DNA of 64,000 nt from Gammaproteobacteria bacterium. Its GTDB lineage: Bacteria; Pseudomonadota; Gammaproteobacteria; Steroidobacterales; Foliamicaceae. Location of the stretch: the NCBI GenBank assembly GCA_026708965.1, contig JAPOTY010000006.1, forward strand, positions 1-64,000, in the 5' to 3' direction. Shown here piece by piece: positions 23,719 through 41,270 of this stretch (its first letter is position 1; each line of letters begins with the position of its first letter). Under the pieces are notes generated by a model, which saw only the letters and a list, made by a program, of their open reading frames with translations, searched no databases and had not been told where the DNA came from. The position numbers were made by a program, and so were the translations under genes.

Positions 23719-24492
23719 ATGCCGGCGCGCATTCTGCTAATCGACGACGATGCCAAGCTTGGAATGCTTCTGCGCGCCTACTTCAGCCGTTTCGATCTTG
23801 ATCTTGAGTCGGCCCTCGAAGGAGACAGCGGATTGCGCAAACTGGCCTCGTTCTCGCCGGATCTGGTCATACTCGACGTGATGCTTCCGGGACGCGACGG
23901 CTTTGAGTTATGCCGGGAAATACGCAGGTCCAGCAGTGTGCCCATCATCATGCTGACCGCGCGCGGCGACGTCACCGACCGCGTGGTGGGTTTGGAGGTG
24001 GGCGCGGACGACTACCTCGGCAAGCCTTTCGAGCCGCGCGAGCTGGTGGCCCGCATCCAGACCATTCTGCGCCGCGTGCAGGGCCCGGGAATCCGCGCCG
24101 GCGCCGCCGACCATGGTCCCCTGCGCCTCGATCCTGATCGTCGGGAAGCGCTTCTCGACGGCAGGCCGCTGGATCTGACCGCCATGGAGTTCAACTTGCT
24201 GCGGTTGCTTTCGGCTGAGCCTGGGCGGGTCTTTGCCCGCGACGAAATCCTAGCGGAGTTGCGCGGCATCGAGCCGAATATCTTTTCCCGCTCCGTCGAT
24301 ATCAATATCAGTCGGCTGCGCCAGAAGCTCAACGATGATCCCGCCAATCCCCGATTCATCAGAACGATTCGCGGCGCGGGCTATGTCTTTTTGCGCGCTG
24401 ATCCCGCCTCTGGCAGCGGCGGCTCCGCACCGGCGCGGAAGCAGAGCCCGGCCGCCGAAAGCGCTTCTGCCAAGGAGTCAAGCGCCCTATGA
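23719..24492 (+). CDS. OmpR/CpxR-type response regulator
   Basis: ILLIDDDAKLG, DLVILDVMLPGRDGFELC, PIIMLTARG, GADDYLGKPFEPRELVARI; winged helix SVDINISRLRQKLNDDPANPRFIRTIRGAGYVF. Confidence 0.93.
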   Translation: MPARILLIDDDAKLGMLLRAYFSRFDLDLESALEGDSGLRKLASFSPDLVILDVMLPGRDGFELCREIRRSSSVPIIMLTARGDVTDRVVGLEVGADDYLGKPFEPRELVARIQTILRRVQGPGIRAGAADHGPLRLDPDRREALLDGRPLDLTAMEFNLLRLLSAEPGRVFARDEILAELRGIEPNIFSRSVDINISRLRQKLNDDPANPRFIRTIRGAGYVFLRADPASGSGGSAPARKQSPAAESASAKESSAL

Positions 24493-25532
24493 ACTCCAAG
24501 CCGCTCAGCGCCCTAGGCCAGCTGTCGCGCAAGGCGCTCAACGCCCTGCGTTCCCTTCCCGTTCGCCTCATCGCGATTTTTGTGGCGAGCCTGGTGGTGA
24601 TGTCCTTGGGCGTGACCACGGCCGCCGAATTATTTCCCTACGAGCAGAACCCGGTTCGGTTTCGCATTTTCGTTTATGGCGTGTGCGCGGCAGCGGTCGG
24701 CGGCTGCTACCTTGCCGTGCGGCATTTATTTCGCCCGCTGGAGGATATTCGGTTTGGGACCCGCCAGATTGGAGACGGGCAACTGGACCATCGGCTTCCG
24801 ATACGCCGCCACGACGAGTTCGGCCGGCTGTCGGAGCGCATTAACCGCATGGCCGACGAAGTGCAGAGGATGCTGGCGGGCCAACGCCAGCTTCTGCTGG
24901 CTCTGAGCCACGAGCTTCGCACACCGCTGACGCGCGCCCGCCTGGCGCTGGAATTCATCAACGACAAGGAGGTGCGCGGGCATCTGGAATACGACCTGTC
25001 GAAAATGCAGCGCATGATTACCGAGTTGCTCGAGGGCGAGCGCCTGAATACCCGCAGCCGGGAGTTGTCCCGTTTGCGCGTGAACCTCGCTGATCTGGTC
25101 ATGGAGGTGATGCAAGGCGATTTTCCTGATGAGCAAGAGCGCATATCACTGAGTTTGCCGGCGGCGCCAGCGCATCTGGATGTGAACGCCGCGCGGCTGC
25201 GCATGCTGGTTCGCAACCTGGTGGAGAACGCGCTGCGCTACAACCCCGGCGATGGCCCCCCGGTGAAACTGGATCTGGAAATGGGCAATGGCCTCGCCAT
25301 CATACGGGTTCAGGACCACGGCCCGGGGATCGAGCCGGAGCACTTGGAGCAGGTCACCCACGCCTTTTTTCGCGCCGACTCGTCACGCGGCGCCGGCACC
25401 GGACGCCACGGCCTGGGGCTTTACCTGTGCCGCCTGATCGCCGAAGCCCACGGCGGCCGCATTGAGGTTGCGAGCCCTCCCGGCAGCGGCGCCTGCATTA
25501 CCGCCCGTATTCCAGGCGCTCCGCCTGCCTGA
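24489..25532 (+). CDS. Sensor histidine kinase with minimal periplasmic loop
   Basis: Two TM helices, HAMP, ALSHELRTPLTRARLAL H-box, NLVENALRYNPG N-box, DHGPGIEPEHLEQV. Confidence 0.92.
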   Translation: MNSKPLSALGQLSRKALNALRSLPVRLIAIFVASLVVMSLGVTTAAELFPYEQNPVRFRIFVYGVCAAAVGGCYLAVRHLFRPLEDIRFGTRQIGDGQLDHRLPIRRHDEFGRLSERINRMADEVQRMLAGQRQLLLALSHELRTPLTRARLALEFINDKEVRGHLEYDLSKMQRMITELLEGERLNTRSRELSRLRVNLADLVMEVMQGDFPDEQERISLSLPAAPAHLDVNAARLRMLVRNLVENALRYNPGDGPPVKLDLEMGNGLAIIRVQDHGPGIEPEHLEQVTHAFFRADSSRGAGTGRHGLGLYLCRLIAEAHGGRIEVASPPGSGACITARIPGAPPA

Positions 25533-28218: not shown

Positions 28219-29589
28219 TCAAGTGAATAAGCTTGCTTGCTTGCGGCGGCGATAGCGCACCTGGCATGGGGGCTTGGGGCCCGTCACCCAGCTGCCGAAG
28301 TTCGGCATCGGAAATTCCGAGGCGAGATCAAAATCGAAGCGGTCGAGCAGCACCGTCCATATCGCCTTGAGTTGCAGCACGGCGAATTTTTCCCCCATGC
28401 AGCGGTGCTTGCCGCCGCCAAAGCCGATCAGGGTGTAGAGGTGCTGCTTGGCCTCGCTGCGCGGAGGAGCGAATCGCTCCGGATCGAACTGGTGGGGGCC
28501 GGCAAACAAATGCGGCAAGCGGTGCGACAGCGCCGGGGACACCACAGCCAAGGTGCCTTCAGGCACGTTGTGGCCCGCATACCGAAGCGGCTTCAGCACT
28601 TTGCGAATGAGCAGTATCAGCGGCGGGTGCAGCCGCTCGCACTCGCGCACGCAGCGCTCCAGCGCCGGTTGCCGCTTGAGGCTGGCGAGGCTCATGGCGC
28701 CGTCGTTCTGGCACGCCTCGCGCATCTCGCCGCGCACCCGCTCTAAGCAGGCGGGATCGCGGAACATCTCAAGGCCGGTCCAGGTTGCGAGCACGGCGCT
28801 GGTGTGCTGTCCGGCGAATAGCGCGGTGAGCAATATCCCGGTTACCTCGCCATCGCTCAAAGCGCGGCCGTCCTTGTAGCGGGCCTGCATCAGCGCCTGC
28901 ATGAAATCCTCCGCCTCCGCGCCCGACCGTCGGCGGCTCTCGATCACCCGGGCAAGGATTCCGGCAACGCGGCGGCGCGCCCGGTCGCGGCGCCGATGCG
29001 CCGGGATCGGCAATTTGGGCAGGAAGAAGCCGATCAGATTAATCCCCTCTTCAAGGTCGTGGTACGCTTGGGCAAATCCCGAATCGACCTGATTCCGCAC
29101 TTCCTCGCCCAGCAGGCAGCGGCTGGCGATATTCACCGTCAGCTCGTTCATCCGAACCGGCAGATCGATGGTTCCCTCGTCGCCCAGCGAATCGGCAAAC
29201 TGGCTGGCCTCCTCGTACATGATTCGCGCGTACCGGCGCATGGACGCATCGCGCAGCGCCGGAAAAAGGAACCCCAGCTGCTCCGCCATGATCTCGGGCG
29301 CCACGTCGTAGGCCACGCCGCGCCCGAAAATGGGCACCGTGAACTGATAAACGGCCCGGGCATCGAGCTGATCCTCGGGCGCCCGGAAGTAGGCATCATG
29401 GGCTTCCGGCCCGGTGAACAGCACAAAATCACGGGTTCCCAGCCGAAAACGGACCAGCTCGCCATGCTCGCTCCAGCAGCGGTGGAGCATCCCCACCGGG
29501 TCCTTATAGAATTCCGGTAAATGACCGAGCAACGGCCAGCCGCCGGAGAGTGCGGGAATCGGCTTGTCGGACGGCGGCAACTCAGGCAT
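28219..29589 (-). CDS. Cytochrome P450, CYP51-like
   Basis: YQFTVPIFGRGVAYDVAPE, I-helix FAGQHTSAVLATWT, ExxR ECERLHPPLILLIR, heme FGGGKHRCMGEKFA. Confidence 0.88.
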   Translation of the reverse strand: MPELPPSDKPIPALSGGWPLLGHLPEFYKDPVGMLHRCWSEHGELVRFRLGTRDFVLFTGPEAHDAYFRAPEDQLDARAVYQFTVPIFGRGVAYDVAPEIMAEQLGFLFPALRDASMRRYARIMYEEASQFADSLGDEGTIDLPVRMNELTVNIASRCLLGEEVRNQVDSGFAQAYHDLEEGINLIGFFLPKLPIPAHRRRDRARRRVAGILARVIESRRRSGAEAEDFMQALMQARYKDGRALSDGEVTGILLTALFAGQHTSAVLATWTGLEMFRDPACLERVRGEMREACQNDGAMSLASLKRQPALERCVRECERLHPPLILLIRKVLKPLRYAGHNVPEGTLAVVSPALSHRLPHLFAGPHQFDPERFAPPRSEAKQHLYTLIGFGGGKHRCMGEKFAVLQLKAIWTVLLDRFDFDLASEFPMPNFGSWVTGPKPPCQVRYRRRKQASLFT

Positions 29590-29803: not shown

Positions 29804-30892
29804 CTATCCGGAACCTTGAGGCCGGGTCTTCACGCGCTCGCCTTCGGCGACCAGCTCCTGGCCCAAGGTAATCAGCGTCACGTTCTCCGGCAATCCCGAC
29901 ACCCAGAGGCTATCGCCCTCCTCCCTGATGATCTCGATGGGGAAAAAGCGCACACGGCTGCCATTGTCCACGGTCCGCACCCCCGTTTGGTTATTCGCGT
30001 CCAGCACCACATAGGACACGGACACCTTGTGGGCCGAATACGCGCTCAACGCGATCCGTACTTCCGCGCTCAGGCCGGAACTGATTGCGAAATCGCGATT
30101 GGGCACGGTGATCTCAATAGGGAAAGTGCGTGACTCGTTGCTGGACTGCCTCCCCACAAAGGTGACCTCGCCGGTCACGTTTCTGCCGTCAACCAGCAAA
30201 ACGTTCGCGGCCGCCCCCACTTCAAGGGCGGCGTATTGCTGTTCGGTCGCCGCAGCCTCAACATGGATAGGGTCAAGATCCAGGATGGTGGCGCAAGGGC
30301 TGCCCGCCTGAAGGTAGTCGCCCACTTCGGCATGCACTTCCTCAACGAAGCCTGCGATCGGGGCCGTGACCGCCGACTTTGCCAGCTCAATCCGGTCCGC
30401 GGCCAGACGGCGCTCTGCGGCGCTAAGGCGGGACTTGGCTTGCGCGATGCTCAATTCCCTTTGCAGGCCCTGCTCGCGCAGGCTGAGCAAGCCTTGGTGC
30501 TCAAGTGTGGCCAGCGCCACGGAATCCTGCGATTCGCGAACCCGCGCTTCCCGGTCCAGAGGCTCCAATTGGCACAACAGATCGCCCGCCGCCACCTGCG
30601 CCCCTCTCTCTACCGGTCGGGCGGCCACCTGGGCCGACGTTTCCGCGCGAACCGTTACCGTGCGTTTGCCGACCGTGCGCCCTCGCAGCGTCAGCTCGCG
30701 CGATTGAGAAGTGGCGAGGCTGGTCAGCACCCGAACTTCGGTCTCCCTCCCGGAGGGTGCAGGGGCGACCGGCTCGCTGCTGGCATCACTGCGCTCATTG
30801 TCGCCGCCCGCGCCGCCGGACAACAGCCATGTCGCGGCAAGAACGATAACCGCCGCCGGTCCGATCAGCTTTTTTCCCCACTGCTTCAGCAT
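29804..30892 (-). CDS. RND efflux periplasmic adaptor (HlyD/AcrA-like)
   Basis: VRAETSAQVAARPVERGAQVAAGDLLCQLEPLDREARV, KSAVTAPIAGFVEEVHAEVGDYLQAGSPCATI. Confidence 0.87.
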   Translation of the reverse strand: MLKQWGKKLIGPAAVIVLAATWLLSGGAGGDNERSDASSEPVAPAPSGRETEVRVLTSLATSQSRELTLRGRTVGKRTVTVRAETSAQVAARPVERGAQVAAGDLLCQLEPLDREARVRESQDSVALATLEHQGLLSLREQGLQRELSIAQAKSRLSAAERRLAADRIELAKSAVTAPIAGFVEEVHAEVGDYLQAGSPCATILDLDPIHVEAAATEQQYAALEVGAAANVLLVDGRNVTGEVTFVGRQSSNESRTFPIEITVPNRDFAISSGLSAEVRIALSAYSAHKVSVSYVVLDANNQTGVRTVDNGSRVRFFPIEIIREEGDSLWVSGLPENVTLITLGQELVAEGERVKTRPQGSG

Positions 30893-31026: not shown

Positions 31027-33009
31027 ATGAAACTCGTTGAAGATCTTGTGCTTTCGCTGCTCAACGAGGAGAGCGGCTATATGGAACAGGTTGCCGGGTG
31101 GAACCTCGCCTGCGCCCTGTCCGGAGCCATCCTGGCCGACCTCGCGCTTCAGTACCGCATCGATATGGATATGGAATCGCTGACCTTGCTGGACGCGAAG
31201 CCTACCGGCGACAGCTTGCTCGATCCGGTTCTTGCGGATATCGCGACCGCTGAGGGTGGGCCGCACACCGTGCAGTACTGGGTGGAGAAGAAAGCGCCGG
31301 ATTCCGATGGCCTGCTGGAGAAAGTGCTGGAGGAGCTGACCGCCAAAGGCATTCTGACCCGAGCATCGGGCGGATTCTGGTCGCTGTCGCAGAAGGTATT
31401 GAGCGCTTCGAAGCAGCCAGCGCGGGAGGCGACCCGGCAGCGGATCATCCAGATCCTGATGACCGACGAGATCCCCGCTCCCAGGGAGGCAATCCTTATC
31501 GGCCTTATTAACGCCAGCGACGCCTTTCATTTTCTTTTTCCGCCGGAAGAGTACAAGGCGGCGCGCGAGCGAATCAAATTCATCAGCAATATGGATTTGG
31601 TGGGCCGGGCGGTGTGCGACGCGGCCATCCAGAGCCAACTGCAATTTTCGCTGGCCAGTCAGGCCACCAAGCCGATACCGCGATTGAAACTCCGGTCGCT
31701 GCTCACCAAACAGTCGTTTCGGCAGGGCAATAGCGCGAGAATATTTGCCGACTTGTATCAGGAATACGGCCCGGTTTTCGAGCTCAGGATGCCAGTGGGG
31801 AAACCACTCGTTGCCATGGCAGGCAATGCGGTCAACATGTGGGTGAATCGGCGCGGCCGCCTGCATTTGATCACCAAGAACTATATCTCCGGGCTTGAAC
31901 AGGTGTTCGGCGCTCAAAGAACCCTTCCCGGCATGGATGGCGCCGAGCATTTCCGGATGCGCAAGGCGCAGCGCTCGGCTATGTCCCGCAGCCGCTTGTG
32001 GGAGCGGATTGACGAGCTTTACGGGGCAGTCCGCGGCGCTTTGCGGGAATGGAAGCCCGGCGACACGTTTGAATCGCTGGCCGTGCTTCGGCGGCTTATG
32101 ACCGTGCAAACCTCGCAACTCTCGGTTGGCGTGGACGCTTCGCATTACATGGAGGAACTTCTGGAATTCAAGGATCTTGCCCTGCTGACGCACGTTCAGC
32201 GGGTTTTTCCTAAATTCATGCTCAAGACTCCGCGTATGCGCCGGATACGCAAGAAGATCGATCAGATTGTTGTGGAAATCAAGACCGCGCACACGGTTGC
32301 CCAGCGATCCGGCAAGCCCCGGGATCTGGCGGACAATCTGTTCAGCCTGCATAACACCGATCCCCAGTTCTTTCCTCAAAAGGACATGACTTTCGCTCTC
32401 ACCATGCCGCTGATTACGGCGATTTACATGGCCAACGGGTTGAGTTTCATGCTCTACAACCTGGTGACGCGCCCCGATATATACCGGCGGGTGCAGTCCG
32501 AAGCGGACGCGCTGTTCGCCAATGGGGATCCGCAACCCGGCCAATATTCGCAACAAGCCATCGACGTGACCTACCGGTTCATTATGGAAACATTGCGACT
32601 TTATCCGGCGGTTCCGCTACAGTTGCGCGATGTGATCAATAACTGCGTGGTGGAAGGCTATGAAATTCCCGTGGGCACCCGTGTGCTGATTGCCTCCACG
32701 GCCCCGCACTACCTAGCCGAAAATTATCCGGAACCGCTGCGATTTGATATAGACCGGCACTTGCCCGAGCGGGCCGAAACCGAGAAGCCCGGCGCCTGGG
32801 GCTCATTTGGCCTGGGCACGCACACCTGCCTGGGCAAGCGCTGGGCCGAAATGCAGATTGCGGTCAATCTGCTGATGATCGCTCATCATTTTGATCTCGA
32901 GGTGTCTCCGCCTGGCTACAGACTGCAGCTCAATCCCTTCCCCACCAACGCGCCACGCAAGAAGCTCAAGTTCCGTGTGCGGGCCGTGCGCCATCCAGTG
33001 GAAGGCTAG
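31027..33009 (+). CDS. GPP34 (GOLPH3/Vps74-like)-cytochrome P450 fusion protein
   Basis: N-terminus MKLVEDLVLSLLNEESGYMEQVAGWNLACALSGAILADLALQYRIDMDMESLTLLD is GPP34-like; C-terminal P450 with ETLRLYP (ExxR) and FGLGTHTCLGKRWAEMQI heme loop. Confidence 0.78.
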   Translation: MKLVEDLVLSLLNEESGYMEQVAGWNLACALSGAILADLALQYRIDMDMESLTLLDAKPTGDSLLDPVLADIATAEGGPHTVQYWVEKKAPDSDGLLEKVLEELTAKGILTRASGGFWSLSQKVLSASKQPAREATRQRIIQILMTDEIPAPREAILIGLINASDAFHFLFPPEEYKAARERIKFISNMDLVGRAVCDAAIQSQLQFSLASQATKPIPRLKLRSLLTKQSFRQGNSARIFADLYQEYGPVFELRMPVGKPLVAMAGNAVNMWVNRRGRLHLITKNYISGLEQVFGAQRTLPGMDGAEHFRMRKAQRSAMSRSRLWERIDELYGAVRGALREWKPGDTFESLAVLRRLMTVQTSQLSVGVDASHYMEELLEFKDLALLTHVQRVFPKFMLKTPRMRRIRKKIDQIVVEIKTAHTVAQRSGKPRDLADNLFSLHNTDPQFFPQKDMTFALTMPLITAIYMANGLSFMLYNLVTRPDIYRRVQSEADALFANGDPQPGQYSQQAIDVTYRFIMETLRLYPAVPLQLRDVINNCVVEGYEIPVGTRVLIASTAPHYLAENYPEPLRFDIDRHLPERAETEKPGAWGSFGLGTHTCLGKRWAEMQIAVNLLMIAHHFDLEVSPPGYRLQLNPFPTNAPRKKLKFRVRAVRHPVEG

Positions 33010-33032: not shown

Positions 33033-34049
33033 ATGGATGTGATTCTTACGCTGATTTTTTCAATCATTCTGTTCAACTATGCCCATGAATTCGGACATTT
33101 CATCGTTGCCCGGCTAACGGCCATGCCCATCCCCGCGATGTATGTGGGTGTTGGTCCGGCATTGGCCCGTAAGACCACCAAGAGCGGCACCCAAATGGTG
33201 TTCGGGTTGATACCCGTTGCTTCGATGCAGGCGGATGGCCGGGTGTTTAGGGAATTTCCGGCGTTTCGACGCCTGCTGGTGGCATCCGCAGGCCCCATGG
33301 CGAATTTTCTGTTTACCTTTGTGTTGCTCGCGGTGTCGTACATCGGCTTCAACGCGCCGTCAACGGCCGTGGTGAGCGCGGTGGATGTGGATGGTCGTGC
33401 CTACGAGGCGGGGATGCGCGACGGCGACCAGCTGGTGGCGGTTGATGGCAGCGCAACGGAAACCTGGTCGGATGCGGGCCTGCGCCTGCTGGATCGTGTG
33501 GGTGATACCGGCACCTTGGAGCTGGCGGTGCAGCGCGGCGAGGAGCGGCTCGAATACGGCTTTGAGATTTCCCGGTGGCAATCGGATGTGGCGCAGGTGG
33601 ATGTGTTTGGTGATCTGGGCATTGGCCCGGACACGTCAAGCGATGCCCGCGCCTCGCTGTTCGGCGGACTGTTCGGCGCCGTGCGGGATACCGTGAGAAT
33701 GTTCTGGTCCACAACGGTGAGCGGCTTCAAGATGCTTTTCGGGTCCATGAGCGTGCTCAACTTCGGCGGCGCCATGCAGTTGACCCAGCTCGGCCTGGAT
33801 GCGGGCAGTCTCGACGCGGGCGACTACCTCAAGCTGTTTGCGCTGTTTTCATTATGCTTCGGGCTTATCAACCTGCTTCCGGGTCCCATAGTGGACGGTC
33901 TCGCCATGATCGTCGCAGCGGTGGAATGGGTGGCCGGCAGGCCCCTTCCCTCGGTAGTGGACAAGCTGATGCAGATCGTGGGCTACGTGCTCGCGTTCGG
34001 GCCGATTCCGCTATGCATCATTCACGAACTGATCCGGGTGAATAGCTAG
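33033..34049 (+). CDS. M50 site-2-protease-like membrane metalloprotease with one PDZ
   Basis: NYAHEFGHFIVARL (HExxH), PDZ-like AYEAGMRDGDQLVAVDG, NLLPGPIVDGLAM. Confidence 0.85.
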   Translation: MDVILTLIFSIILFNYAHEFGHFIVARLTAMPIPAMYVGVGPALARKTTKSGTQMVFGLIPVASMQADGRVFREFPAFRRLLVASAGPMANFLFTFVLLAVSYIGFNAPSTAVVSAVDVDGRAYEAGMRDGDQLVAVDGSATETWSDAGLRLLDRVGDTGTLELAVQRGEERLEYGFEISRWQSDVAQVDVFGDLGIGPDTSSDARASLFGGLFGAVRDTVRMFWSTTVSGFKMLFGSMSVLNFGGAMQLTQLGLDAGSLDAGDYLKLFALFSLCFGLINLLPGPIVDGLAMIVAAVEWVAGRPLPSVVDKLMQIVGYVLAFGPIPLCIIHELIRVNS

Positions 34050-37000
34050 CCCGGTCTTCCGATCCTCCGGCGCCGGGGGAGGCTGGGCATTCTTAAGGAA
34101 AAGGACCGGCCCCGCATGTGTTCGGAGAGCTGGGCGCGCGCTTCGCGCAGCCGTTGGGGCAGGATCAGCAGCACCGGCGTGGCCACCAGCGTCAGCAAGG
34201 TGGCAAAACCCAAGCCGAATATGATTGCCTGAGCAAACGGCGCCCACATTGACGGCAATTGCCCGCCCGCGGTCCAAGTGCGGTTGATGAGGTCGATGGA
34301 TTGGTAGCTGGCAAGCGGCAGCAAGCCCACGATGGTTGTTACGGTGGTGAGCAAAACCGGTTGCAGGCGGTGCAATCCGGTCATCATGATGAGGGACCTC
34401 CGATCCATTTCAGGGCGTTCTTTGCGTCCAATGTTGTAGGTGTCGATCAGCACAATGTTGTCGTTCACCACGATCCCGGCGAGCGAAATCACGCCCACGC
34501 CGGTCAGAATCGCGCTGAAGGGCTGGCTGGTGATGAGCAGACCCAGAAACACGCCTGTTGTTGAAAGCACGATAGCGAGCATGATGAGAAGGCTCTGGTA
34601 CACGCTGTTGAACTGCATGATCAGCAGCACGAACATGAGCAGCAGGGCAAATGAAAAAGCCTTCGACAGGAACGCCAGCGACTCCTCCTGTTCCTCGTTG
34701 GCGCCCCTGAAACGTATGTCCACCAGCGGATCGAAGGTCTGGGAGTCGATCCAACTGCGGATTTCCCGCACTTTTGTGTCCGGCAGCACTCCCGGCCCCA
34801 CGCTGGCGCGAATCATGTGCATGTCGCGCTGATCGTTTCGCTGCAAAGCGTCAAGCCTGGGGCGGGCCTCCCGGGTCACGAAGTTGGACAGTGGTGCCAG
34901 CCCGCCGCCGGTGCCAACCCGCAAATCGTCAAGTTCGCCGATGCCGCGATCCTGCGCGGGATAACGAATGCGGATGTCCAGCGCATCATCGGCATCGTCG
35001 GGGCGGTACTCGCCCAGTTTCACGCCGTTTGTGACCAATTGCGCGGCCAGGCCAACGGTGGAAACGTCGGCCCCGTACATGGCGGCCTGGGCACGATCCA
35101 CTTCGAGCTCCCAGGCGATGCCCGGCACGGGCAGCGTATCTTCGATGTCCCTTATGCCCTCCACTTCGCTTTCCAGGTGCGCGCGCACCTGCTCGACCAC
35201 CGGCGCCAGCCGGTCCCGCTCGCTGGCAGAGAACTGGATCGCGATCGGTTTACCCGCCGTTATCTGAGACTCGAACGGTCGCACTTCTATGACTAGGCCC
35301 GCGAACACTTCGGCGCGGCGGCGAATGTCCTCAAGAATTTCGGTGCCCGAAAGCTCGCGCTCGTTGTTCTCCACTAGTTCGATGTACATGGAGCCGATCA
35401 GGTCGGTTGTTGATCCGCCCTCGTACTGCATCTGCTGGCCCTGCGCCTGGCGCACGCCCCGGGTCGCAAACGTGTTCAGATTCTTGATGCCCGGCGTTTC
35501 AATAACGGTCTGTTCAACTTCCGATACCAGCCGGTAGGCCTGCTCCACCCCGAGATTGCCGCGAGCGCGCACGGATACCTGGGCGAACATGGGGTCGTTC
35601 TCGTTGAAGAACAGAATTCCGAGATCGCGCGCGCCGTGAATCGAGAAAATCGACCAGACCGTGGCCAGAAGGATCACCACCGCCCAAACCGGGCTGCGCA
35701 AGGCAAGCCCCAGCAGCCTGCTGTATTGGCGGCGCAAGCCTGTTACATGAGCGAGGTTGGTGTCCCATACGTTCATCGGCTCGCCGGCGGCGGTTTTTCT
35801 CCTGCGAACGAAAGTGGCCCCCAGCACTGGCGCGAACACCAGCGCGTAGAGCAAGGATCCGCCCAGCACCATCATCAGGGTGATGGGCAGATAACTCATG
35901 AATTCCCCGGCCAGGCCGGGCCAGAACAGCAGCGGCACGAATGCGGCCAAGGTGGTGGCGGTTGCCGCAATGACCGGCTGAAACATCCGCTTGGCCGCTG
36001 CGGAGTAGGCATCGCGCGGGGGGGCGCCGGCATTGATTTGCCGGTCGGCCTCTTCAACGACCACGATGGCGCCATCAATCAGCAGGCCCAGTCCGAGCAG
36101 CATGCCGAACATGACCATGAAATTGAACGAATAGCCCAGCAGCCATAGAAGAATCAGCGAGAACAGCAAAGAAACCGGAATTCCGGCGGCCACGATCAGG
36201 CTGTTCCTGAGGCGCAGGATCGGCAGCAGGCAAACAAGCACCAATACCAGCGCGGTGACTAGGTTGCCCTGCAATTCAACGACCTGCTTTTCCGCGAAGA
36301 ATGATGAGTCCTGCGAAAAGAACAAGGTGACGCCGGCGGGCAGTTGCGGGCGAAACGCTTCAACGGCCTCGCGCACCATGCGCGATGTCTCGATGCTGTT
36401 TGCGTTGGCGCGCCGATAGATGAAAAGGGACATCGACAGCCGGCCATTGGCATGTGAATAACTGGTCCGGTCCTTGAAGCCGCGGCCAATCGATGCCACT
36501 TCGCTCAAGGTGACCACGGTGTCGCCGCTCACCTGCACCGGAATATCGAAAAGATCTTCGGGCGCCTTGACGACGCTGGGCACATTCACGGCCACGCTGG
36601 ACTGGCCCGAGTCGAGCGCGCCGACGGCGATCAGCCGGTTATTGCGCTGTAGCGACCCCAGCAATTCCTCAACCGACAGCTGGTAGGCTTCAAGCTGCTC
36701 GGGGTTGATCATGATTTCCAGCAATTCTTCGCGACCGCCTTGCAACTCGGCGGTATGAACCTCGGAAACCATTTCGATCCGCTGCTTGAGCTGGCGGGCG
36801 GCGGCATAAAGCGAGCGTTCCGAAATTTCTTCGCCAACAAGATTGACCTGCAGCACCGGATAGTCGGTTGTGGTCGATTCCTGCACGACGGGCTCTTCGG
36901 CGGTGGCCGGGAATTCCGGCCTGGCGCGACTCACCGCCTCGCGCACATCGGCCAGCGCCGCATCGAGATTCGTGCCGACCGTGAATTCAACCGAAACAAT

Positions 37001-37273
37001 CGCCATATGCTCGGCGGCGGTGGCGTTGATTTCCTTAACGCCCTGCATCGCCTTCAGGTGTGTTTCCAGTGGAAACACCAAAAGGCGCCTGGCATCATCG
37101 GGAGAAATTCCCTCGTGGGGCACAGTGATCACGAACAACGGGATTTCGATGCTGGGCTCGCTTTCAATCGGAATCGACATCCGCGCCACGATGCCGAACG
37201 CCACAACTCCCAGCATCACCAGAAGCATGGACCGGTTCTGGCGCACCGCCCAATCGACAAATTTGTCCTTCAT
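34046..37273 (-). CDS. RND efflux permease (HAE1/AcrB family)
   Basis: MKDKFVDWAVRQNRSMLLVMLGVVAFG, LLGLGLLIDGAIVVVEEADRQI, two-fold RND repeat, about 1075 aa. Confidence 0.93.
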   Translation of the reverse strand: MKDKFVDWAVRQNRSMLLVMLGVVAFGIVARMSIPIESEPSIEIPLFVITVPHEGISPDDARRLLVFPLETHLKAMQGVKEINATAAEHMAIVSVEFTVGTNLDAALADVREAVSRARPEFPATAEEPVVQESTTTDYPVLQVNLVGEEISERSLYAAARQLKQRIEMVSEVHTAELQGGREELLEIMINPEQLEAYQLSVEELLGSLQRNNRLIAVGALDSGQSSVAVNVPSVVKAPEDLFDIPVQVSGDTVVTLSEVASIGRGFKDRTSYSHANGRLSMSLFIYRRANANSIETSRMVREAVEAFRPQLPAGVTLFFSQDSSFFAEKQVVELQGNLVTALVLVLVCLLPILRLRNSLIVAAGIPVSLLFSLILLWLLGYSFNFMVMFGMLLGLGLLIDGAIVVVEEADRQINAGAPPRDAYSAAAKRMFQPVIAATATTLAAFVPLLFWPGLAGEFMSYLPITLMMVLGGSLLYALVFAPVLGATFVRRRKTAAGEPMNVWDTNLAHVTGLRRQYSRLLGLALRSPVWAVVILLATVWSIFSIHGARDLGILFFNENDPMFAQVSVRARGNLGVEQAYRLVSEVEQTVIETPGIKNLNTFATRGVRQAQGQQMQYEGGSTTDLIGSMYIELVENNERELSGTEILEDIRRRAEVFAGLVIEVRPFESQITAGKPIAIQFSASERDRLAPVVEQVRAHLESEVEGIRDIEDTLPVPGIAWELEVDRAQAAMYGADVSTVGLAAQLVTNGVKLGEYRPDDADDALDIRIRYPAQDRGIGELDDLRVGTGGGLAPLSNFVTREARPRLDALQRNDQRDMHMIRASVGPGVLPDTKVREIRSWIDSQTFDPLVDIRFRGANEEQEESLAFLSKAFSFALLLMFVLLIMQFNSVYQSLLIMLAIVLSTTGVFLGLLITSQPFSAILTGVGVISLAGIVVNDNIVLIDTYNIGRKERPEMDRRSLIMMTGLHRLQPVLLTTVTTIVGLLPLASYQSIDLINRTWTAGGQLPSMWAPFAQAIIFGLGFATLLTLVATPVLLILPQRLREARAQLSEHMRGRSFSLRMPSLPRRRRIGRPG

Positions 37274-37586
37274 GGACTTGCTCCGTCTTGTCCGCATATT
37301 GCATCGGTTTCCGGGATTCCGGAAAGCGCAAGCCACGAGCGAAGAATCATTCCAGGCAATTCAGCAAATCTCCATCGAATCAGCAGGCTCCGTCAACACG
37401 GCGCATACTGGCGCACTATGCGGCTGGTCTCCACCCTTCAGGAAAAATTCAAGCGCATCAGGGAGCGCTGCGGACACCCGCTGGAGGGTCCGGACCTTCT
37501 TGCGAAGCAATGCCGCTACCCCCGCTGACTTGTTATCTTAATTGAAGTATAACGAAAAGGCTCCAAATCTTCGATTTGGCGATTGA

Positions 37587-38801: not shown

Positions 38802-38935
38802 GATCGCCCGCGCCTTATAGATAAGCGTGGAAATGTTCCGTGTTTGGAATGAGCTTCGGCAACCGCCATATCTGGGACAAGACAGGCCGTATAATCCGTT
38901 GTTGAGCGATAGGGACGCGCTGGTTGCGGGTTGTT

Positions 38936-40420
38936 ATGCCTTCTATGTCCGTGCTAATCGAAAAGGCCACTAAGGAGAGAGGCGGGTACTACACCCCTCG
39001 CGACGTTGCCGCATATTTGGTCCGGTGGGCTGTGCGCAGCGACACGGATCTTCTGCTGGATCCTTCCTGCGGCGACGGGCGTTTTATAGCCTGCCATCCA
39101 AATAGCATCGGTGTTGAGCGCAACCCGGAGGCGGCCAAAGCAGCGAAGCAACAAGCTCCCGGCGGCGCCGTGCATGAAGGCGATTTTTTTGAATGGGCCG
39201 ACCGAAACACGAAACATTTCGACTGCGCCGCAGGGAATCCTCCGTTCATCCGATACCAGACTTTCAACGGCGCTGCGCGCAAGCGCGCTCTGAAGCTTTG
39301 CTCGAGGGTCGGCGTTTCCTTCTCGGGCCTGACAACATCCTGGGCGCCTTTCCTGGTTGTGACGGCGAGTCTGCTTCGTCGCGGAGGTCGAATGGCGTTT
39401 GTCGTCCCGGCATCCATCGGCCATGCGCCCCACGCGGCCCCTTTGATGGAGTATCTCGTTTCCAATTTCGACACGGTCCAGGTGGTTCCCATTCGCCGCA
39501 AGCTCTTTCCGCACCTCTCGGAAGACTGCTGGCTTTTGTTCGCGGAGGGTTTCGGGGGTGCAACCAAGCATATCAAGTTCGTTCCGACCGATCGCTTCCG
39601 TCACTTGCCCATCGCCGAGGAACCTATCGAATCGGTGCCGGTTGGCGAGTGGCGCAGCCTGTGGAACCGCAGGCTGAGGCCCTATCTGCTGAGCAAGGCG
39701 GAACGCTCGATCTACCAAGAGATCGCGCAACGGCCAGATTCACAACGCCTTGGCGACGCGGCCTCGGTGGGTATTGGCTACGTGAGCGGCGCCAACGAGT
39801 TCTTCCATCTGCGCCCGTCGGAGGCCGATCGTTGGCGCATCCCTAAGAGCTTCTTGCATCCCGCTGTTCGAAATGGCCGTGCGCTTCCGGCCCGCAATCT
39901 TTCGGATCAAACCATTCGGGAGTGGTACCGGGCCGACAAGCCCGTGCTGTTATTGCGCATACCGAAAAACGCTGCATTGCCCCGGCCTGTCTTGAACTAT
40001 TTGGATTCGCCGCAGGGACGGCAAGCTCGCCGAAGCTACAAGTGCCGCAATCGCAAACCGTGGTACTCCGTGCCCGATGTCCGTGTGCCGGGTTTTTTCC
40101 TGACCTATATGTCAGGCATGACGCCTAGCTTGGTGAGGAATTCCGCCGGAGCAACATGCACAAACGCGCTCCATGCCATACATCTGCGCAACGGCCGCAG
40201 CGGCGAGCAGCTGCTTAAGTCTTGGGGCTCGATTTATGTGCAACTCAGTTGCGAGCTGGAGGGCCATGCGCTTGGGGGCGGCATGCTCAAGCTTGAACCC
40301 AAGGAGGCCGCGCGAGTGGTGCTGCCATCGGCCAGCGCGCTTTCCAGCCTGATTCCTGCCTATCTTCAAGACTCCCTCCGGACTTTGCGTAAGTGGAGAC
40401 ACTATGAAGACAGGCGCTGA
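38936..40420 (+). CDS. Type II N6-adenine DNA methyltransferase
   Basis: GGYYTPRDVAAYLVRWAV, LLLDPSCGDGRFI, catalytic AGNPPFIRYQTF. Confidence 0.85.
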   Translation: MPSMSVLIEKATKERGGYYTPRDVAAYLVRWAVRSDTDLLLDPSCGDGRFIACHPNSIGVERNPEAAKAAKQQAPGGAVHEGDFFEWADRNTKHFDCAAGNPPFIRYQTFNGAARKRALKLCSRVGVSFSGLTTSWAPFLVVTASLLRRGGRMAFVVPASIGHAPHAAPLMEYLVSNFDTVQVVPIRRKLFPHLSEDCWLLFAEGFGGATKHIKFVPTDRFRHLPIAEEPIESVPVGEWRSLWNRRLRPYLLSKAERSIYQEIAQRPDSQRLGDAASVGIGYVSGANEFFHLRPSEADRWRIPKSFLHPAVRNGRALPARNLSDQTIREWYRADKPVLLLRIPKNAALPRPVLNYLDSPQGRQARRSYKCRNRKPWYSVPDVRVPGFFLTYMSGMTPSLVRNSAGATCTNALHAIHLRNGRSGEQLLKSWGSIYVQLSCELEGHALGGGMLKLEPKEAARVVLPSASALSSLIPAYLQDSLRTLRKWRHYEDRR

Positions 40421-41270
40421 TCCGAACCCCGGCGTTGCCTTGGTGAACAAACTGGATGCCTTCCGGCACTTTGCGGAATTCCGCGGGGCAACGCAGAGCC
40501 AGTTGCATATCCGCCCCCTGCATGAGTACGTGACGTCACGCTTGGTTCTGGAAGGCGGTTTTCGGCCAAGCGAATTAAGCCCGCGACCGCCGTTGCGTAC
40601 TGAGGAGGCCGGGAATCTGCGTCGCGTCGCATATGCGCCACAAGAACGCACGCAAACTGAAGCTACTATCCTCGGCGGACTCAAGACCAAGAAAGTTGAC
40701 ATCGTGGTCAGCAAAGACGGGATCGGCCCCGTGCTGGCCATATCCTGCAAGGGGATGACAGGGGCGGTTCGCAACCTTACCAACCGCCTCGAGGAGACGA
40801 TTGGCGAATGCACAAACATCCACCTGAGCTATCCCACGCTGGTATTTGGCTATCTCTTTTTGATGCGTGCCAATCGGGAAGGAGAAAATGCTGCGCTGGC
40901 CGATGCGGCGTTTGACAGCCAAGGGCGACCGCTTGAGAGCATTGTTCGCTTTCATCAGGCATTGAGCGGCATGACCGGACGGCTAAATCCGAGAAATGAT
41001 TCCGGTCGCTACGAGGCGATCGCAATGGCGCTCGTGGAGGTGTCGCCACCGCATGCCGGCGCAATCAACGCGGACTACCCACCTCGTGATAGCGCTATCC
41101 ATTTCGACCAATTCTTTAAGACGATATACCGGCGCTATGACGAGCGGTATGTAGTGAGCGCACCTCGACTCGTGCGCAGAACCCGTCGGCTGGAATGGTC
41201 TTGCGATTCCCCTGCGCTTGACGCGGAAACTTTACAGCGGCTTGACTATCGTCCCAGAGTAGCGGGCTAG
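40404..41270 (+). CDS. Putative type II restriction endonuclease partner
   Basis: Overlaps the methyltransferase end; PD-(D/E)XK-like segment KKVDIVVSKDGIGPVLAISCKGM. Confidence 0.6.
   Translation: MKTGADPNPGVALVNKLDAFRHFAEFRGATQSQLHIRPLHEYVTSRLVLEGGFRPSELSPRPPLRTEEAGNLRRVAYAPQERTQTEATILGGLKTKKVDIVVSKDGIGPVLAISCKGMTGAVRNLTNRLEETIGECTNIHLSYPTLVFGYLFLMRANREGENAALADAAFDSQGRPLESIVRFHQALSGMTGRLNPRNDSGRYEAIAMALVEVSPPHAGAINADYPPRDSAIHFDQFFKTIYRRYDERYVVSAPRLVRRTRRLEWSCDSPALDAETLQRLDYRPRVAG

Follow-up and report, generated by a model that had tools for sequence, protein, structure and literature searches.

A GPP34–cytochrome P450 fusion protein with sterol-related gene neighbors in bacteria that come largely from marine sponges

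Eukaryotic sterol P450s carry an N-terminal membrane anchor. To our knowledge, no molecular function has been assigned to any bacterial GPP34 protein, and the COPI coat partners of GOLPH3 are absent from bacteria. Eukaryotic GOLPH3 is an adaptor that binds the tails of enzymes, and its PI4P-binding residues are R90, R171, N172, and R174 (PMC12494035). SCO4440 of Streptomyces coelicolor, which is GOLPH3-like, has been linked to peptidoglycan dimers and to wall-deficient cells (PMC12402492). In sponge symbionts, sterol operons and sterol C-methyltransferases (SMTs) are already known: the msb locus, which was proposed for sarasinosides (PMC7074536), the steroid gene clusters from Ircinia (PMC9531527), and the bacterial SMTs (PMC10070321). 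A term search of these last three papers did not find GPP34, or a P450 beyond CYP51.

Here we describe a protein that joins a GPP34 domain to a P450. Its gene lies in the window, which is the 64,000-nucleotide stretch of DNA that we analyzed:

31027..33009, + strand: GPP34-P450 fusion protein, 660 aa, a single open frame without an internal stop
31033..31623, + strand: GPP34 domain, aa 3-199 (PF05719, 5e-37; the fold is that of GOLPH3/Vps74 only)
31354..31386, + strand: GPP34 beta-hairpin, aa 110-120, with F117 in 44/45 and W118 in 45/45 domains; counterpart of the membrane-inserting hairpin of GOLPH3 (hairpin role: PMC12494035)
31678..32991, + strand: P450 domain, about aa 218-655 (PF00067, 7.9e-42; CYP51/CYP184A1 by Foldseek)
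32377..32466, + strand: I-helix of the P450, aa 451-480, which lacks the acid-alcohol pair; Y467 is invariant and is followed by L/M in 51/54
32803..32835, + strand: heme-binding loop SFGLGTHTCLG, aa 593-603, which contains C601

Our preferred explanation, to which we give a probability of about 60%, is that the fusion is a membrane-docked, sterol-tailoring P450 of marine-sponge symbionts, which acts with a Rieske oxygenase, an SMT, an FAD enzyme, and export by RND/MMPL transporters. We infer the docking at the membrane, the sterol substrate, and the export of the product. The substrate is argued from the neighboring genes and the fold, because the P450 is only about 20–28% identical to any P450 of known function. 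The reading is supported by the presence of the fusion in at least 10 phyla, by its sterol-gene neighbors, by the CYP51 in the window, by a sterol operon on contig 37 of the same genome, by the CYP51/CYP184A1-like fold, and by the retention of Phe-Trp in the hairpin.

An earlier note, made from the sequence alone, took the first ~200 amino acids to be GPP34 and saw a complete P450, with ExxR and heme loop, in the same frame. Both assignments held up. The fusion matches GPP34 (PF05719) with 128.3 bits (cut-off 29.1; 5e-37), covering positions 1–197 of the 201 in the profile, and it matches P450 (PF00067) with 144 bits (7.9e-42), with the best stretch at aa 350–629. An AlphaFold model of the whole protein, built on 54 related fusions, has a mean pLDDT of 83.4 (87.6 for aa 1–213). 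When compared to known structures by Foldseek, aa 1–213 match GOLPH3 (9qpq, TM 0.79; 3kn1, 0.74) and 2zih (0.73), and GOLPH3 and Vps74 are the sole matches at E ≤ 0.001. The profile search and the structure prediction, which the earlier note had proposed as checks, thus agree on a GPP34 domain with a GOLPH3-like fold. The sterol context and the spread among sponge symbionts were beyond what the note could show. For the whole model, P450s are on top, led by CYP184A1 and by the Methylococcus CYP51 with lanosterol bound, the latter having a TM of 0.85 by target length. C601, G595, G597, H599, E521, and R524, which form the heme-thiolate loop and ExxR, are invariant across 54 aligned fusions.

Could two genes have been joined by chance or by misassembly? 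This idea is already refuted, and we give it practically no weight: no point in its favor was found, and the full-length fusion is present in over 80 loci from many assemblies and sites. An assembly error, which would have undone the earlier note, is ruled out because the fusion recurs in 4 congeneric genomes (48–49% identity), in 3 genomes from another family of the order (about 43% identity), in 1 genome from another order (41% identity), and in 80 MAG loci. (All of the titles for these 80 loci say MAG, and a few of the loci are the same records as the 4 congeners.) These 80 loci came from a survey for the GPP34-P450 architecture, as the earlier note had suggested. We scanned 84,980 species genomes with an alignment of the fusion and obtained 216 candidate loci; the best 80 of the 216 are all full-length fusions, 43–69% identical, from at least 10 phyla. 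A scan of genome contigs with a single sequence found no fusion.

The fusion gene is rare in general and is common in some lineages. Among 399 Pseudomonadota genomes, only the window's own genome had a match at E ≤ 1e-60, whereas the class to which one Chloroflexota carrier belongs had matches at that threshold in 25 of 41 genomes, mostly full-length. The expectation that bacterial GPP34 proteins are mainly stand-alone and largely actinobacterial fits a published count (129 of 218 species; PMC12402492). In a tree of 81 fusions, with support taken from a quick search, the phyla are mostly clustered (13 label changes, where the minimum is 9). This pattern would fit a few transfers between phyla and then vertical descent, neither of which is proven, nor is the direction. 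Spread on plasmids was considered and rejected: no plasmid record covers 80% of the fusion, and the matches listed are separate P450s (about 26% identity).

The carrier genomes come largely from marine sponges, with hosts assigned partly via bin codes. Records other than those that follow are presumably from sponge studies as well. Six loci carry accessions of the form MPM*/MPN*, which is the series of the Aplysina aerophoba bins (PMC5649159); MPNJ matched exactly. The bin codes CAR, COS, RHO, IRC, and APA fit the demosponges of another study (PMC8163846), by our own reading of the codes.

The neighboring genes tell us more than the GPP34 domain does. To identify recurrent neighbors, we clustered the open frames around 86 fusions and checked the results with tblastn. 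(Gene calls in these loci are open frames resolved by cross-locus similarity, and the starts and the small genes are uncertain.) In the best 80 of the 216 loci, a KshA-type Rieske oxygenase lies within about 10 kb of the fusion in 60 loci, an SMT in 46, an FAD oxidoreductase in 43, and an MMPL transporter with a sterol-sensing domain in 30. RND-type pumps, adaptors, and outer-membrane channels were each found in 17–26 of these 80 loci. In 53 loci, the sequence extends 8 kb or more in both directions from the fusion; one or more of the Rieske, SMT, FAD, and MMPL genes were present in 49 of these, and two or more in 43. As a control, 20 arbitrary stretches (325 kb) from 20 carrier genomes gave zero matches to the neighbor queries. 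In 25 loci, the SMT is within 150 bp of the fusion. Near the fusion, SMTs were found in six named phyla and the Rieske gene in ten. A domain scan found Sterol_MT_C, along with a methyltransferase domain, in 46 of 47 SMT neighbors; among the Rieske neighbors, 61/61 have KshA_C and 60/61 have the Rieske domain. At locus L177 (6257-8871), an oxidosqualene cyclase is directly adjoined by an SMT and by what appears to be a relative of the cluster's FAD oxidoreductase, which supports a sterol role for the cluster's FAD enzyme.

KshA-type Rieske enzymes have a known role in steroid degradation, and RND-MFP-OEP sets adjoin the fusion, so the P450 might instead degrade or detoxify host steroids or xenobiotics, with the RND pumps removing the products. 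We consider this quite improbable. Among the neighbor clusters that we examined, we recognized no recurrent genes for ring degradation; also, SMT is a biosynthetic enzyme, and the window genome has genes for de novo sterol synthesis.

Members of the SMT, Rieske, and MMPL families have non-sterol substrates too. Another unlikely alternative is that the cluster acts on some other polycyclic terpenoid (a hopanoid, or a specialized triterpenoid such as a saponin aglycone) rather than on ordinary membrane sterols, so that the P450 would be a tailoring enzyme for natural products. The MMPL neighbors do resemble HpnN, the msb locus of sponge symbionts was proposed for sarasinosides (PMC7074536), and in 14 of 50 carriers, among the matches listed, the only cyclase match is hopene-cyclase-like (29–35% identity). 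However, the SMT neighbors have the sterol-specific C-terminal domain, the sterol-sensing domain of the MMPL neighbor scores above the cut-off, and 30 of the 50 carriers have neither kind of cyclase at E ≤ 1e-30 among the matches listed. Oxidosqualene cyclase itself was found in at least 6 of the 50 carriers (62–67% identity), so the idea that all carriers make their own sterols is not supported. Because this cyclase was not seen in most carriers among the matches listed, uptake of host sterols is likely in most of them, with the caveat that MAGs have gaps.

Returning to the sterol-tailoring reading, the window itself offers a second connection between the fusion and sterols. The genes around the fusion include:

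23719..25532, + strand: response regulator and histidine kinase, which form a two-component pair; synteny is shared with congeners L040 and L041
25557..28109, + strand: TonB-dependent receptor (PF00593/PF07715); the true start may be downstream
28219..29589, - strand: CYP51 (sterol 14alpha-demethylase), 81% identical to the sterol-operon CYP51 of a congener (L175) and 41% identical to CYP51 of M. capsulatus
29804..30892, - strand: RND periplasmic adaptor (MFP; TIGR01730, 123 bits), syntenic with the fusion in 4 congeners
33033..34049, + strand: M50 site-2-type protease (PF02163, 1.1e-34), 23 bp downstream of the fusion
34046..37336, - strand: RND pump (AcrB family; PF00873, 1.7e-151), syntenic in 4 congeners

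It is the CYP51 next to the GPP34-P450 locus that makes this second link. On contig 37 of the window genome (L174), an SdmB-like gene, an SdmA-like gene, ERG24, and a squalene epoxidase-oxidosqualene cyclase gene lie one after another, and HpnE- and HpnD-type genes follow them. The epoxidase and the cyclase are fused (L174:8797-12159, 1120 aa), and the operon has no CYP51. This arrangement matches the published msb locus (PMC7074536) and steroid gene cluster (PMC9531527), minus the CYP51. The sterol row of the congener (L175) does include the CYP51 that is 81% identical to the window's gene. The window's CYP51 has moved out of the de novo sterol operon to a place beside the fusion. We did not find an SMT or a KshA-type Rieske gene in the window genome, which is 94% complete.

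In the congeners, the RND, fusion, and MFP genes are on one strand with gaps of under 60 bp, and an SMT follows on the opposite one. The window has the same MFP and RND genes, and between them are the fusion and the M50 protease, in the opposite orientation. The protease also directly adjoins the fusion in L058, L059, and L068, which belong to the window's subclade, and it is nearby in L014 (G180). In eukaryotes, site-2 proteases take part in sterol regulation; this parallel may be due to chance. The TonB-dependent receptor, which has copies of 68–79% identity near the fusion in congeners, possibly takes up a hydrophobic compound. Farther away, at 38924-41270, are a gene for an Eco57I-type DNA methyltransferase and a 288-aa gene with no Pfam match, which is likely the restriction partner of the methyltransferase. 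These genes sit between moeA and an MFS gene, which adjoin each other in all four congeners, so this region looks like an inserted restriction-modification island.

What might the GPP34 domain do? The earlier note proposed that it tethers the P450 to the inner leaflet. This is a reasonable inference: the hairpin's Trp is invariant and its Phe is nearly so, and we saw no N-terminal transmembrane helix in the fusion. (In the AlphaFold model, the hairpin strands are aa 110–113 and 117–120; across 45 aligned domains, F117 is found in 44 and W118 in all 45.) In contrast, PI4P was rejected as the ligand. With the residue correspondence taken from a profile alignment, R90, R171, and R174 of GOLPH3 are replaced in 45 of 45 domains: R90 by A/V/I/S, R171 by E/D in 44 and by P in one, and R174 by I/V/L/M. 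N172 is mostly replaced by S/E. The Trp at the position of GOLPH3 W81 is kept. Since the PI4P site is lost, another lipid, or none, must be assumed for the GPP34 domain of the fusion.

Tethering need not be the only role of GPP34. We also found GPP34 at the N-terminus of MFS transporters (L017:8462-10327, L018:7607-9514, and L051 from G369); the genomes are two of the class, with G017 from the same order and G369 from another family. In two orders, the C-terminal partner of GPP34 is a hydrophobic, multi-helix region of unknown family (L015:8986-10236 and L048:6312-7487), which looks membrane-embedded. Neither the transporters nor the multi-helix proteins need a tether. GPP34 might then be an adaptor or a sensor instead of an anchor: it could gather the pathway's enzymes or the pump into one complex, or it could sense the charge of membrane lipids and gate the fused enzyme. 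Eukaryotic GOLPH3 is itself an adaptor for enzyme tails (PMC12494035). We take this alternative seriously while rating it somewhat short of an even bet, as the fusions conserve the membrane-inserting hairpin and the model shows no further membrane segment for the P450. The two roles, adaptor or sensor and anchor, can also hold together.

The P450 domain differs in its I-helix from P450 monooxygenases of the usual O2-activating kind. The usual motif is AGx[DEH]T, whereas the 54 aligned fusions mostly have ASxY-[LM]G, with Y467 in 54/54 and L/M next in 51/54. When aligned with CYP51 and other P450s, none of the 54 has the acid-alcohol pair ([AG]Gx[DEH]T), so the route that normally delivers protons for O2 activation is missing. 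This points to one of several options: the proton may come from the substrate or from Tyr467, which is invariant; the chemistry may be driven by peroxide; or the reaction may be of the isomerase or dehydratase type. The conserved loss of the pair marks a P450 family whose chemistry is probably unusual. No ferredoxin or reductase gene was recognized among the recurrent neighbors, so the P450 may take its electrons from some other donor or may need no donor. The fusion P450 was rejected as a member of CYP51, as it is 21–26% identical over the P450 domain (the criterion is over 40%) and its I-helix differs. A P450 without GPP34 at L019:15873-17354 is 29% identical and has a normal I-helix (AGLDT); it adjoins a TonB receptor and many SDR genes, and it is possible that it represents a sister family.

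If the sterol-tailoring reading is correct, then GPP34 would stand in for the N-terminal membrane anchor of the eukaryotic sterol P450s. Its hydrophobic hairpin would dip into the cytoplasmic leaflet and would keep the opening of the P450 at the membrane, where sterols are. The P450 would modify a sterol or a sterol-like triterpenoid, which would probably be self-made in the window organism and probably be taken up from the host in most carriers. It would share one pathway with the KshA-type Rieske oxygenase, the SMT, and the FAD oxidoreductase, and the RND/MMPL pumps would export the product. In mycobacterial lipids, a methylene is reduced after methyl transfer; by analogy, the FAD enzyme might reduce a 24-methylene sterol. 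Some points count against this reading: the SMT and the KshA-type Rieske gene are missing from the window genome; most carriers show no oxidosqualene cyclase among the matches listed, so uptake is assumed or else the MAGs are incomplete; GPP34 is found on transporters that need no anchor; and the neighboring families have other substrates too.

Text searches across 5.4 million open-access papers turned up no report of a GPP34-P450 protein. As far as we searched, there was no earlier description of the fusion, of the cluster and its spread, or of the loss of the acid-alcohol pair and of the PI4P-binding residues. A conserved GPP34-enzyme fusion with readable gene context offers a route to testing a function of a bacterial GPP34. 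The origin of unusual sponge sterols, from the host or from symbionts, also bears on the oldest claimed animal biomarker. More tentatively, sponge symbionts from many phyla might share a pathway for sterol remodeling that has spread among them. The signature enzyme of this pathway would be a P450 that belongs to a new family and has non-standard chemistry, docked to the membrane by a GPP34 domain that has ceased to recognize PI4P, and the pathway would help to make unusual sponge sterols, including candidates in the debate about the 24-isopropylcholestane biomarker.

How does the fusion compare to known systems? It shares with GOLPH3/Vps74 the fold (TM 0.73–0.79), a membrane hairpin with an aromatic/hydrophobic tip, and the Trp at the W81 position, but it lacks R90, R171, and R174 (45/45) and is joined to an enzyme. 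SCO4440 is also a bacterial GPP34 protein, but it was not described as an enzyme fusion, and no link to sterols was made there (PMC12402492). CYP51, including the CYP51-ferredoxin of Methylococcus capsulatus, is the nearest P450 in the PDB by sequence and among the nearest by fold. CYP51-ferredoxin is a fusion protein too, and it is also found with sterol genes. However, identity to CYP51 is just 21–26%, the I-helix of CYP51 has AGxHT while GPP34-P450 has ASxY-LG, and the partner in CYP51-ferredoxin is a C-terminal ferredoxin instead of an N-terminal GPP34. Finally, the sterol operons of sponge symbionts come from the same type of host and from many of the same phyla; the window genome has such an operon on contig 37, and SMT recurs by the fusion. 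In contrast to those operons, the cluster around the fusion has a locus of its own, and the operon's cyclase was not seen in most of the carriers. Overall, the published SMTs and sterol operons of symbionts are now joined by a P450, a Rieske enzyme, an FAD enzyme, and exporters as further candidates for testing.
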